Assembly: GCA_030065235.1 (NCBI GenBank)
Contig: JASJDC010000001.1
Coordinates: forward strand, 310,001-374,000
Direction of reading: 5' to 3'
DNA length: 64,000 nt
Origin: Alphaproteobacteria bacterium
Lineage (GTDB): Bacteria > Pseudomonadota > Alphaproteobacteria > UBA8366 > Aestuariispiraceae
The notes beneath the pieces are model-generated. The model was not told the origin of the DNA, did no database searches, and was given only the letters and a program-made list of their open reading frames with translations. Shown in pieces: positions 3,231 through 7,692 of this stretch; within the stretch, counting starts at the first letter, position 1; each line of letters begins with the position of its first letter. The translations under genes and the position numbers were made by a program.

Positions 3231-4286
3231 TTGAGTGATCACGCCATAAAGTCTCCCGGTCCGGCCGCTCTGGTTAAATCGGAAGAAGACGCGGTCAAAG
3301 ACAGCCTCCATCTTCTTGGACTTAATATCCTGCCGCTGAAGACGCCGGGCTTGAAACGGGCCCGATTGGTCAAGAACAGCCGCCTGGAGACGATGGTTGA
3401 ACTGTTCAACGACGCCGGCGGCGCCGGCAGTGGTCAAGTGGCGACCGGCGAGTTGGCGGGGTTCTTTCCGAACGAAGACGAAGACCTCAAATCGGATCTG
3501 GCGTTGATCCAGCGTTTCGATCTTGTGCCGAGTTTCGACGTCTATTCAATCCGGATCGAGTTGCGGGCCATGCAGATCCCGATTGACGACGCTGCGGACC
3601 TGCAGCTTTCGGAAGCCAAGCGCGCCGAACTGACCGACCGGATGAAGAGCTTCACCCATCCGTTGATCCTGCATGTCTATGGCGCCGATCAGGGCATCCA
3701 GGATGTCGGGGACATTCTGGCGCTGTTCAAGGATCCGGATCCGGCGACGGCGCTGTCGAAGCTGAAGAAGATGGCCGAGCAATTGGACGTCTCGCTGGCC
3801 GAGATCCCAAAATTCCTGGAGGATTACGGCGATATCTTCCTTTCGCTCGCCTATTTCCGGGACATTCTCGATAACACCGTTCCGACCATCTATGAGTTTC
3901 TCGAATGGATGAAAGAGTTGCGCGGCAACTATCAGGTCAAGCATGACCGTGCGTTGGACAATATCCTGAAGACGATCGATTCGGACCTGACGGATGTGAC
4001 CGGGTCGATCACCGGTCGGTTCGAGAGTTTCGATCGCAAGACGAAGGATTTTTGGGACGATATCAGCGCCGAGCGCTTTCATGAGGTGCGCGACCTGATC
4101 GCCTCGCACCACACCACGATCGGCGGCGTTTTATGCGGACTGACCCTGAAAATGGACCATTGGCGGTCGCGCTTCAAAAACGCCAGCGTCGGCGGTCCGC
4201 AACAACGCGTCGAGTTCATCCGCAGCGAGGTCCTGCCGGGCCTTGATTGGATCAAGTCCCTGGAGATGAAAGCCGCCAAAGGCTGA
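3231..4286 (+). CDS. Conserved hypothetical protein, 351 aa, soluble
   Basis: I do not recognise a named family. The frame uses a TTG start (TTG AGT GAT) preceded by GGTGGAAG. The product is acidic, mostly helical by composition, with no signal peptide, membrane segment or cysteine cluster. The N-terminal third contains LKRARLVKNSRLETMVELF, and the middle is rich in hydrophobic-charged helices (IPKFLEDYGDIFLSLAYFRD, YEFLEWMKELRG). The C-terminal half has spaced His/Arg/Glu residues without an obvious catalytic motif. It stands alone between tRNA-Pro and the aminotransferase gene. Its codon usage matches that of its neighbours, so recent transfer is unlikely. A structural or scaffolding role is possible but unsupported. 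Confidence 0.8.
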   Translation: MSDHAIKSPGPAALVKSEEDAVKDSLHLLGLNILPLKTPGLKRARLVKNSRLETMVELFNDAGGAGSGQVATGELAGFFPNEDEDLKSDLALIQRFDLVPSFDVYSIRIELRAMQIPIDDAADLQLSEAKRAELTDRMKSFTHPLILHVYGADQGIQDVGDILALFKDPDPATALSKLKKMAEQLDVSLAEIPKFLEDYGDIFLSLAYFRDILDNTVPTIYEFLEWMKELRGNYQVKHDRALDNILKTIDSDLTDVTGSITGRFESFDRKTKDFWDDISAERFHEVRDLIASHHTTIGGVLCGLTLKMDHWRSRFKNASVGGPQQRVEFIRSEVLPGLDWIKSLEMKAAKG

Positions 4287-4434: not shown

Positions 4435-5673
4435 ATGAACGCCGATGTGACAGCCCTGCACGCCGTTTCCACCGCGCCGGCTCCGGTGCGGCGCGGCCGT
4501 GAGTTCTTGAATGTGCCGGGTCCGACCAACATTCCGGAACGTGTCCTGCGCGCAATGAACCGCGCCGCCATCGACTTTTCGGGACCGGAATTCATCGACC
4601 TGTCCAAATCGGTGTTTCACGACCTGAAGCCGCTGTTCAGGACCGACGGCGAGGTATTCCTTTACGGCGCGAATGGTCATGGCGGCTGGGAAGCGGCGTT
4701 GGCGAACACGGTCGTGGCGGGAGACGCCGTCTTGTTGCCGGAGACCGGCAATTTCTCGGCTGGTTGGACCGAGATGGCGAAGTCGATGGGGGTCGAGGTC
4801 GTCACGATTCCTAATGATCGACGGCACGCCATTGATCCGAACGCCGTCGAGGACATCCTTCGCGCCGATGCGGACCGCAAGATCAAGGCGGTCTTGGTGG
4901 TCCATACCGACACCGCGACCGGCGTCACCAGCGACCTCCGCGCTGTCCGCGCCGCGATCGACGCGGCCGACCATCCGGCTCTCTTCATGGTCGACGCGAT
5001 CGCCTCCTTTGCGACGGTTGATATCCAGATGGAAGCCTGGAATATCGATGTCGTAGTCACCGCCTCGCAAAAAGGCCTGATGTGCGCGCCTGGCGTCGCG
5101 TTGGTCGCAGCCGGCCGAAAGGCCTTGGCGCATGCCGAGACGATCGAAACGTACACCCAATATTGGGATTGGGGCTTTCGCCGTCAGAAGGAGCATTATC
5201 GACGCTATTGCGGCACCGCGCCGGAGCATATCGTCTTCGGGTTGCGCGAGGCGATGGATATGATCGCCGAAGAGACCTTGGAAGGCGTTTTCGCCCGCCA
5301 CGCCCGGTTGGCGGAGGCGGTGCGGCTCTGCGTCGGCAAATGGTGCGAGGCGGGCGCGCTGCAATTCAACGCGGTTGTCCCCGCCGAACGTTCAAACGCC
5401 GTCACAACGATCCTCCTCCCCGAAGGCTTCACGACCGACGCGGTGCGCGATGTCTGCCGCGACCAATTCTCGGTCTCTGTCGGCGGCGGGCTCGGCCATC
5501 TCAACGGCCGTGCGTTCCGGATCGGCCATCTGGGCGACAATAACGAGCCGATGATCCTGGGCTGTCTCGCGGCGGTCGAGGCGGGCTTGAAGCGGATCGG
5601 CCTGCCGATCGGCGAGGGCGGTTTGCCGGCGGCCATCGACTGGCTTTCCCGGCCGACAATTCCAGGACGCTAG
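4435..5673 (+). CDS. Serine-glyoxylate / alanine-glyoxylate aminotransferase (class V, PLP)
   Basis: A 412-residue fold-type I PLP enzyme that moves an amino group from serine (or alanine) to glyoxylate, giving hydroxypyruvate and glycine. Landmarks are FLNVPGPTNIPERVL, the cofactor-phosphate loop ANGHGGWEAALAN (about 79-91), HTDTATGVTSDL, VDAIASFATVDI with the Asp that contacts the pyridine nitrogen, and TASQKGLMCAPG with Lys213 as the probable Schiff-base lysine. The substrate could equally be another small amino donor such as phosphonate-type substrates, but PGPTNIP and the alignment of the core favour the SGAT/AGT group. No other serine-cycle genes lie beside it. It ends immediately before the type III PKS frame. 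Confidence 0.85.
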   Translation: MNADVTALHAVSTAPAPVRRGREFLNVPGPTNIPERVLRAMNRAAIDFSGPEFIDLSKSVFHDLKPLFRTDGEVFLYGANGHGGWEAALANTVVAGDAVLLPETGNFSAGWTEMAKSMGVEVVTIPNDRRHAIDPNAVEDILRADADRKIKAVLVVHTDTATGVTSDLRAVRAAIDAADHPALFMVDAIASFATVDIQMEAWNIDVVVTASQKGLMCAPGVALVAAGRKALAHAETIETYTQYWDWGFRRQKEHYRRYCGTAPEHIVFGLREAMDMIAEETLEGVFARHARLAEAVRLCVGKWCEAGALQFNAVVPAERSNAVTTILLPEGFTTDAVRDVCRDQFSVSVGGGLGHLNGRAFRIGHLGDNNEPMILGCLAAVEAGLKRIGLPIGEGGLPAAIDWLSRPTIPGR

Positions 5674-5677
5674 ACCG

Positions 5678-6808
5678 ATCGCGACGTACCCGGACGCTTA
5701 CGAGAGGCGCGCCGCGCCGCCGGTCTCACTCCTGTCGGTCTCGGATGCATTTCCATCCTACCGGCTGACCCAGGGCGACGCGCTGCAAGCGCTGCACGGG
5801 CTCTTCGGCGACCGGTTTTCGGCCGACCCGGGTCTAGCGGCGCAGATGACGCAGGCCTTTTCCCGCGCTGGGATTGATCAACGCGCCGCTTGCTTTCCGC
5901 TGGAATGGTATTTGGAGCAACGCGGCTGGCGCGATCGTATGGCGGCGTTCGAGGCCCAGGCCCAGGCGCTGCTGCTTGAGGCCGGGCGGGCGGCTCTCGC
6001 AGAAGCGCAGATCGAAGGCGCGAACATCGACGCGGTTGTGTGCGTGAGCACGACAGGCGTGTCCACGCCAAGCCTCGACTCCTATCTGATCGAGCCCTTA
6101 GGATTGCGCCCTGACGTCAGCCGAACGCCGATCTTCGGTTTGGGTTGCGCCGGCGGCGTCAACGGTCTTTCCCGGGCCTCGGACCTGGCGCGGGCCTTGG
6201 CGGCGGCGCAGGGCGCGGCGACGGTCCTGTTGCTCGTGGTCGAGCTGTGCACCCTGACTTTCCGGCCGCAGGATGACAGCAAGGCTAATCTGATCGGCGC
6301 CGCGCTTTTCGGCGATGGCGCGGCGGCCATGGTGTTGCGCTCGGGCGACGGGCCCCAAGAGGGGGCGAAGGCGCGGCAATTGGGCGGCTACGATCATATC
6401 TTCCCCGCGTCCCACGATATCATGGGCTGGACGATTGAAGAGGATGGTTTCGGCGTCCTGTTCTCGCGCGATATTCCCAAATTGGTGGAAAATAGCTTGC
6501 CCCCGGTTTTCGAGCGGTTTCTCGACCGGTTCGGCTTGGCGCCCGGCGCGCTCCGGGGGGCGATCGCGCATCCGGGCGGCGCCAAGGTGTTGGAGGCTTA
6601 CCGCCGTGCTCTGCCGTTCAACGCCGACACCTACGCGGAATCGGAAGACATGCTGCGGCGTCACGGCAACACATCGGCCGTCACTGTCTTGTCGGTCTTG
6701 AAGCAGGTTTTGGCGACTGGCGAACGCTCCGGCCTCCAGGCGATGATGGCGCTGGGTCCAGGCTTTTCGGCGGGGTTTGGACTGCTCGATTTTGGCGACG
6801 CGGCGTGA
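5678..6808 (+). CDS. Type III polyketide synthase (chalcone synthase-like), start codon unclear
   Basis: A homodimeric thiolase-fold enzyme that extends an acyl-CoA with malonyl-CoA and cyclises the product to pyrones or resorcinols. Numbered from the first ATG (5846), the catalytic triad is Cys101 in GLGCAGG, His242 in AHPGGAKVLE and Asn275 in RHGNTSAV; the C-terminal GPGFSAGFGLL is also typical. From that ATG the protein has only 320 residues. The same frame upstream still encodes a family-like N-terminus (SLLSVSDAFPSYRLTQGDAL), but between the frame's last upstream stop (5588-5590) and 5846 there is no ATG, GTG or TTG. ATC at 5678, 10 bases after AGGA, would give 376 residues, the usual length, and is used here as a provisional start. 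It overlaps the next gene by 4 bases. Confidence 0.8.
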   Translation: MATYPDAYERRAAPPVSLLSVSDAFPSYRLTQGDALQALHGLFGDRFSADPGLAAQMTQAFSRAGIDQRAACFPLEWYLEQRGWRDRMAAFEAQAQALLLEAGRAALAEAQIEGANIDAVVCVSTTGVSTPSLDSYLIEPLGLRPDVSRTPIFGLGCAGGVNGLSRASDLARALAAAQGAATVLLLVVELCTLTFRPQDDSKANLIGAALFGDGAAAMVLRSGDGPQEGAKARQLGGYDHIFPASHDIMGWTIEEDGFGVLFSRDIPKLVENSLPPVFERFLDRFGLAPGALRGAIAHPGGAKVLEAYRRALPFNADTYAESEDMLRRHGNTSAVTVLSVLKQVLATGERSGLQAMMALGPGFSAGFGLLDFGDAA

Positions 6809-7299
6809 GTTGGGCTGTCGGCCTGGTGCTGCTGGTGGCGGCGCAGCGTCTTGGCGAAGTAGCGCTGGCCAACCGCAACACCAGGCGTCTGTTGGCGGCG
6901 GGCGGCCGCGAGGTCGGCGCGCGGCATTACCCGCTGTTCATTCTGTTGCACGGCGCATGGTTGGCGGCGCTGCTATGGCACGCGCTGGGCGCGCCGACGA
7001 TCGATCTGCCGCTTCTGCTCGTGTTCCTGCTCTTACAGGTCGGCCGGGTCTGGGTGATCGCCAGCCTGGGGCGGTATTGGACGACGCGGGTGATCACCCT
7101 GGACGACCGGCCCTTGGTTCGAACCGGGCCGTTCCGGTATTTCGAGCACCCGAACTATCTGATCGTGGTGCTGGAAATCGCGGTTCTGCCGATATGTCTA
7201 GGGGCGCCCTGGATCGCTCTAGTTTTTTCCCTGCTCAACGCCGCGCTGATCGCATTCAGGCTGTCGGTTGAGAACCAGGCGCTCGCGGCGCGCCGTTAG
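6805..7299 (+). CDS. Isoprenylcysteine carboxyl methyltransferase-family membrane protein
   Basis: A 164-residue integral membrane protein of the ICMT/phospholipid methyltransferase superfamily. It has hydrophobic segments at about residues 3-15, 44-60, 66-85 and 125-155. The methyl-donor-binding region is GRYWTTRVI then LVRTGPFRYFEHPNYLIVV with the conserved RHPxY-like EHPNY. It starts at GTG overlapping the PKS stop (GTGA), so the two are coupled. In Bacillus (bpsA-bpsB) and Streptomyces (srsA-srsB), proteins of this family O-methylate alkylpyrones or alkylresorcinols made by a type III PKS; the same role is inferred here. Bacteria of this group lack prenylated CaaX proteins, so the eukaryotic function is unlikely. 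Confidence 0.85.
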   Translation: MSWAVGLVLLVAAQRLGEVALANRNTRRLLAAGGREVGARHYPLFILLHGAWLAALLWHALGAPTIDLPLLLVFLLLQVGRVWVIASLGRYWTTRVITLDDRPLVRTGPFRYFEHPNYLIVVLEIAVLPICLGAPWIALVFSLLNAALIAFRLSVENQALAARR

Positions 7300-7301
7300 G
7301 G

Positions 7302-7601
7302 TTAGTCCTCGGCGACGACCGAGCGGCCGGAATCGGTCAATTTGCAGACCAACCAGTCCGGTTTCAGCGGATTGTGGAACCAGGGTTCGGCCCAACCGTT
7401 GTCGATGCAACTTCGAATGGTGCGTTCCGGGTATTTCTGGCCCTGCAGGTCGAATAGGGGGAGTTTTCCGCCGGCTTGGTCGACGCCGCGTTTCAGATAC
7501 GCCATTTGCGCCTTGCTCGGTGACCGTGGCGTGCGCCCGCGACCGCTGCGCCCGGTCGATTTCACCTGACGCAATCGCACAATTCTGGTCGACGCCGTCA
7601 T
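7302..7601 (-). CDS. Conserved hypothetical protein, ~99 aa
   Basis: A small basic protein of unknown function. The N-terminal quarter is Arg/Ser-rich. The conserved-looking part is LKRGVDQAGGKLPLFDLQGQ, RTIRSCIDNGWAEPWFHNP and DWLVCKLTDSGRS, which suggests a small winged-helix-like or nucleic-acid-binding domain, but no catalytic motif is visible. I chose the ATG at 7601, preceded by GGTGGGGACGAG. A GTG at 7685 would add 28 residues and sit 7 bases after the upstream gene's stop. It is the last gene of a minus-strand run with the HD hydrolase and NlpC genes, and converges with the methyltransferase gene, leaving a 2-base gap. Confidence 0.7.
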   Translation of the reverse strand: MTASTRIVRLRQVKSTGRSGRGRTPRSPSKAQMAYLKRGVDQAGGKLPLFDLQGQKYPERTIRSCIDNGWAEPWFHNPLKPDWLVCKLTDSGRSVVAED

Positions 7602-7692
7602 CTCGTCCCCACCGAAGGCTGAAATCGTGATCCCCGCCCACGATCCTATGTCATTTAGCCCTCTGCGAACAAGGGAGCGCCGCACGGCCCGG

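Follow-up and report, generated by a model that had tools for sequence, protein, structure and literature searches.

A type III polyketide synthase (PKS) gene in the window, the whole 64,000-nt stretch of DNA analysed here, is without the normal start codon of its closest relatives, while the remainder of the gene looks healthy. We propose that a 6-nt in-frame deletion took the ancestral start from behind a Shine-Dalgarno (SD) site that was itself retained, and that full-length PKS is most likely still made, at a reduced level, from an ATC at 5678. We hold this reading tentatively, at a probability of roughly 0.45, and within it we infer how events followed one another, that ATC is used and that the yield is low. 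The case is a modest one of start-codon loss or near-cognate initiation, of a known but uncommon kind. The features concerned are the following.

4435-5673, + strand: class V aminotransferase, the upstream operon gene, ending in TAG; its closest NCBIfam model is BhcA, with a score under the model's cut-off; the same gene lies upstream of the PKS in relatives L002 and L003
5664-5667, + strand: AGGA, weak SD-like site 10 nt before ATC 5678 (duplex -4.0 kcal/mol)
5678-5680, + strand: ATC, putative near-cognate start in the PKS frame, 4 nt past the aminotransferase stop
5702-5707, + strand: GAGAGG, retained SD site (duplex -5.8 kcal/mol), the counterpart of the one ahead of the relatives' start (AAGAGG in L003)
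5708-5716, + strand: CGC GCC GCG, aligned with the relatives' start-codon place; the junction is shorter than that of L003 by 6 nt
5714-5845, + strand: conserved PKS N-terminal part (strand 1 and first helices) with no usual start ahead of it, from homologs, codon-position GC and predicted structure
5846-6808, + strand: type III PKS body from the first ATG, Cys/His/Asn triad kept, from profile matches and alignment
6805-7299, + strand: isoprenylcysteine-carboxyl-methyltransferase (ICMT)-like gene, whose GTG start overlaps the PKS stop and whose SD is weak (duplex -1.9 kcal/mol)

An open PKS frame without a usual start

The PKS frame is open on the + strand from 5591, directly after a stop at 5588-5590, to its own stop at 6806-6808. 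The initial annotation had claimed that ATG, GTG and TTG are all absent from this frame between the stop at 5588-5590 and the ATG at 5846, and both the sequence and its translation bear this out. Across the junction the codons of the frame read GAC GCT AGA CCG ATC GCG ACG TAC CCG GAC GCT TAC GAG AGG CGC GCC GCG CCG CCG GTC TCA CTC CTG, and RNA structure is ordinary there (z -0.37). At the PKS gene's own start-codon frequency, the chance of 85 start-free codons is ~0.0004 and that of 15 start-free codons directly before the conserved N-terminus is ~0.25, so that the absence is not striking by itself. The real evidence for a missing start is homology, since a usual start stands upstream of the conserved N-terminus in ~128 of the 131 or so testable homologs.

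The gene appears from its sequence to be an ordinary alphaproteobacterial type III PKS, lying after an aminotransferase and overlapping a small methyltransferase, with an enzymatic role assigned by homology. Its product matches the N- and C-terminal domains of chalcone/stilbene synthase (PF00195, E 3e-23; PF02797, E 9.7e-10), and the Cys-His-Asn triad (C157, H298 and N331 of P0002), invariant across an alignment of 36 homologs, is present. No stop or frameshift was found in the 405 PKS codons, and deviations at conserved columns (3 of 62) fall within the spread seen among homologs that have a usual start.

Conservation also reaches upstream of ATG 5846. The invariant Pro26 and the near-invariant A24, Q32 and F43, numbered from 5678 and judged against the same 36 homologs, are all kept, and the homologs agree with the earlier claim of a family-like N-terminus from ~5720, the conserved part beginning at ~5714-5723. 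Codon-position GC is alike in 5714-5845 (0.77/0.52/0.80) and in the gene body (0.68/0.50/0.78), and by codon score this short segment is neutral. With translation from 5678 presupposed, an AlphaFold model reaches a pLDDT of 94.7, with residues 16-24 forming strand 1; along its entire length the model matches type III PKSs, the best PDB match being PKS11 (4jap; TM 0.85-0.91). The N-terminal segment is less conserved than the core would lead one to expect (mean residual -0.067, sixth lowest of 117) and carries a 4-residue insertion. Relaxed selection could account for this divergence, although L004, a homolog whose start codons are usual, scores even lower.

The junction in relatives

Among 13 other genomes of the same family, none of them congeneric, the PKS gene was found in 3. 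Two of these genes, in L002 and L003, are 52-53% identical to that of the window and belong to another genus; their gene order is aminotransferase, PKS, ICMT, as in the window. The initial annotation had pointed to close relatives for an ATG at this junction, and both carry a usual start at the homologous place just past the SD site: L003 reads AAGAGGCGGCGC ATG GCG ACC GAG CCT GTA, with an ATG start, and L002 reads GAAAGGACGGGCGG TTG ACC GAA CCT GTC, with a TTG start. An unusual start is thus not common to the close relatives. The window reads GAGAGGCGC GCC GCG CCG CCG GTC; when aligned, its SD site is kept, its start codon is gone and its junction falls 6 nt short of that in L003. The simplest reading, from two relatives at ~53% identity, would be an in-frame loss of the start codon and one further codon, and the retained SD at 5702-5707 points to a real 6-nt loss.

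Several other features of the neighborhood were seen. The BhcA-like aminotransferase lies directly 5' of the PKS in the window (4435-5673) as in L002 and L003 of the other genus. A small minus-strand gene without a Pfam match (window 7302-7685) is kept at the corresponding position in both L002 and L003, flanked by the ICMT gene and an HD-domain gene. Further upstream, 3231-4286 holds a 351-residue open reading frame without a Pfam or NCBIfam match that is strongly coding by codon score.

The missing start codon could also be an artifact of sequencing or assembly, the true genome having a usual start at ~5708-5714. The site does lie within a G/C-only run (5706-5724), and the inferred ancestor had a usual start here. 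However, a 6-nt deletion or a changed codon would be required: a single slipped base could not restore a start, since no ATG, GTG or TTG occurs in any frame from 5671 to ~5745. In addition, the genes of the window tile without obvious broken pairs, with GlnA, trigger factor, Lon and others matching their families over the full length, and the assembly, in 19 contigs, has a completeness of 98.3%. Given the size of the change needed and the intact genes around it, we judge a read error, which the initial annotation had listed as an option, improbable and less likely than either biological option; what does not survive of that option is repair by a single-base slip.

Proposed initiation at ATC 5678

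An ATC start at 5678 had been proposed in the initial annotation, and the codon is indeed in frame with AGGA (5664-5667) ten bases upstream. It remains the lead and the best single candidate, although its use is a prediction and its SD duplex is weak (-4.0 kcal/mol); the SD of the relatives' start, still present at 5702-5707, had been missed. In the mechanism that we propose, a lineage-specific 6-nt in-frame loss would have removed the ancestral start codon and left the SD site in place. Ribosomes terminating the aminotransferase at TAG 5671-5673 would then re-initiate at ATC 5678 with assistance from AGGA, and the low yield expected of near-cognate codons would make the PKS a weakly expressed gene. 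The stronger retained SD (-5.8 kcal/mol) would face GCG 5714, which is expected not to initiate.

Near-cognate starts have precedents. The gene infC is known for them, that of E. coli starting at AUU. In the genome studied here, infC (L215, G000:C2) likewise shows none of ATG, GTG and TTG ahead of the conserved N-terminus of IF3, its best-placed codon being ATA with AGGAGG 5 nt upstream; near-cognate starts therefore probably occur in this genome, with infC as the one positive control. The infC of S. aureus starts at AUA (PMC13009471). In Listeria, rnhC has a natural ATC start that was confirmed by experiment, and non-canonical starts are fixed in 6 of 2265 conserved genes (PMC13068326). Because of the near-cognate starts of infC and the ATC of rnhC, the proposed event is of a known kind. 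A literature search found nothing on which start codons the type III PKS genes of bacteria use.

Three observations count against ATC 5678. Its SD is weak, and the non-canonical starts of S. aureus carry extended SDs (PMC13009471); the stronger retained SD points at GCG 5714, a codon outside the near-cognate set; and the PKS N-terminus is somewhat more diverged than expected, as relaxed selection would give. The main rival is a recent loss of the start codon in a dying or silent gene, in which the 6-nt deletion left the gene poorly translated, as an incipient pseudogene, or with a weak truncated product from ATG 5846. An ancestral SD retained without its start codon, a relatively diverged N-terminus and the weak SD at 5678 all fit such a loss, and an in-frame TAA in the homolog L061 indicates that PKS loss may occur in this class. 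We nevertheless consider it rather unlikely: the 405 codons are free of stops and frameshifts, and the conserved residues and the triad are kept. Moreover, the ICMT gene overlaps the PKS stop and its own SD is weak (-1.9 kcal/mol), an arrangement suggesting that ribosomes read the PKS frame through to its stop. The 320-residue form from ATG 5846, another option of the initial annotation, would be without strand 1 and the invariant Pro26, and this ATG has only a weak SD-like match (-3.2) and lies past strand 1; a weak truncated product is considered as part of the start-loss explanation. The ~55 residues said to be missing from it hold if counted from ATC 5678 (~56) but become ~44 if one counts from where the relatives start.

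Another unusual codon near the junction, GCG 5714, ACG 5684 or AGG 5705, might serve instead of ATC 5678, which we regard as quite improbable. GCG 5714 has the right spacing from GAGAGG (6 nt), as for the ATG in L003, but differs from ATG at two positions. An ACG may be able to serve in this PKS family, as the homolog L092 suggests, but 16 nt separate ACG 5684 from its SD; AGG 5705 has no good SD.

A rejected +1 frameshift fusion

The initial annotation had also raised a programmed +1 frameshift at CGC TAG A that would fuse the aminotransferase to the PKS. The aminotransferase frame, ending at TAG 5671-5673, is indeed offset by one base from the PKS frame, which is open across the junction, and AGGA stands just ahead of CGC TAG. 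However, an in-frame TGA lies between the two genes in L002 and rules out their fusion by this shift in that relative, and the genes upstream of the PKS differ in other homologs. By established pairing rules, tRNA-Arg on CGC cannot re-pair on GCT. Neither a slippery codon nor a conserved open junction, the marks of a programmed +1 frameshift, was found. The fusion was rejected on the TGA of L002 and the pairing rules, and we give it hardly any weight.

Missing starts among PKS homologs

We collected 134 distinct PKS homologs, of which ~131 were testable after L061 (interrupted) and L104 and L219 (contig edges) were set aside. No plausible usual start was found in 3 of ~131: the window and its distant homologs L009 and L092. 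In L009 (reverse strand, ~1492-1550 on the reverse complement) the sole usual codon is a GTG inside strand 1, and upstream of it is an ATT with AAAAGGA 10 nt before. In L092 (983-1040) the sequence TAG GGA GGA GCA CCC ACG places an ACG 6 nt after GGAGGA, directly behind an isochorismatase-like gene. Among the controls no gene was without a usual start: 0 of 103 for ICMT at these loci and 0 of 90 for fabH in the class (0 of 193 in total). The difference is not significant (Fisher p 0.05-0.07), and the comparison began from a case picked for its oddness, without which the count is 2 of ~130. An excess of missing starts among PKS genes is therefore suggestive only. A conserved unusual start was sought in the family neighbors of L092 (G273) and L009 (G037) and was not found; since these neighbors use ATG, GTG or TTG, L009 and L092 are each isolated cases. 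That alphaproteobacterial type III PKS genes might repeatedly swap their start for a near-cognate codon (ATC in the window, ATT in L009, ACG in L092), keeping enzyme level low and possibly tied to IF3 as in infC, seems to us doubtful.

Other homologs drew attention for different reasons. The in-frame TAA of L061 (1867-1869) falls at a conserved PKS place (DAHLL*RLDF) and marks either a pseudogene or a read error. In the set L037, L038 and L078, a contig filed under Candidatus Kuenenia has nearly the same PKS region as one filed under Rhizobium sp. Q54, probably through a mislabelled bin.

Implications

A gene finder restricted to ATG, GTG and TTG would predict a protein of 320 residues at this locus and lose part of the PKS enzyme. 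If ATC 5678 is used, a metabolic enzyme would join the few bacterial genes listed as having near-cognate starts and, together with L009 and L092, would offer a simple test of weak start codons throttling polyketide synthases. If it is unused, the gene would be a snapshot of start-codon loss.

Comparison with known systems

Bacterial operons of a type III PKS and an ICMT-like gene, of the alkylresorcinol/alkylpyrone type, share with the window the triad, the fold and the overlapping downstream ICMT-like gene; the window differs from them in its upstream BhcA-like aminotransferase and in the missing start codon. The prfB-type +1 frameshift resembles the junction in having an SD-like sequence just before a sense codon and then a stop, but CGC TAG is not slippery by the pairing rules and fusion is impossible in L002. 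The proposed ATC start resembles those of infC in E. coli (AUU) and S. aureus (AUA), of ccpN (AUA) and cvfC1 (AUU) in S. aureus, and of rnhC in Listeria (ATC). In these genes, as in the window, no usual start precedes the conserved N-terminus, an SD lies ahead of an AUN codon (in the window a candidate behind a weak SD-like site), and the yield is expected to be low. Those starts were confirmed by experiment or are shared by relatives, and many have strong SDs, whereas the putative start in the window has a weak SD and differs from those of its nearest relatives.
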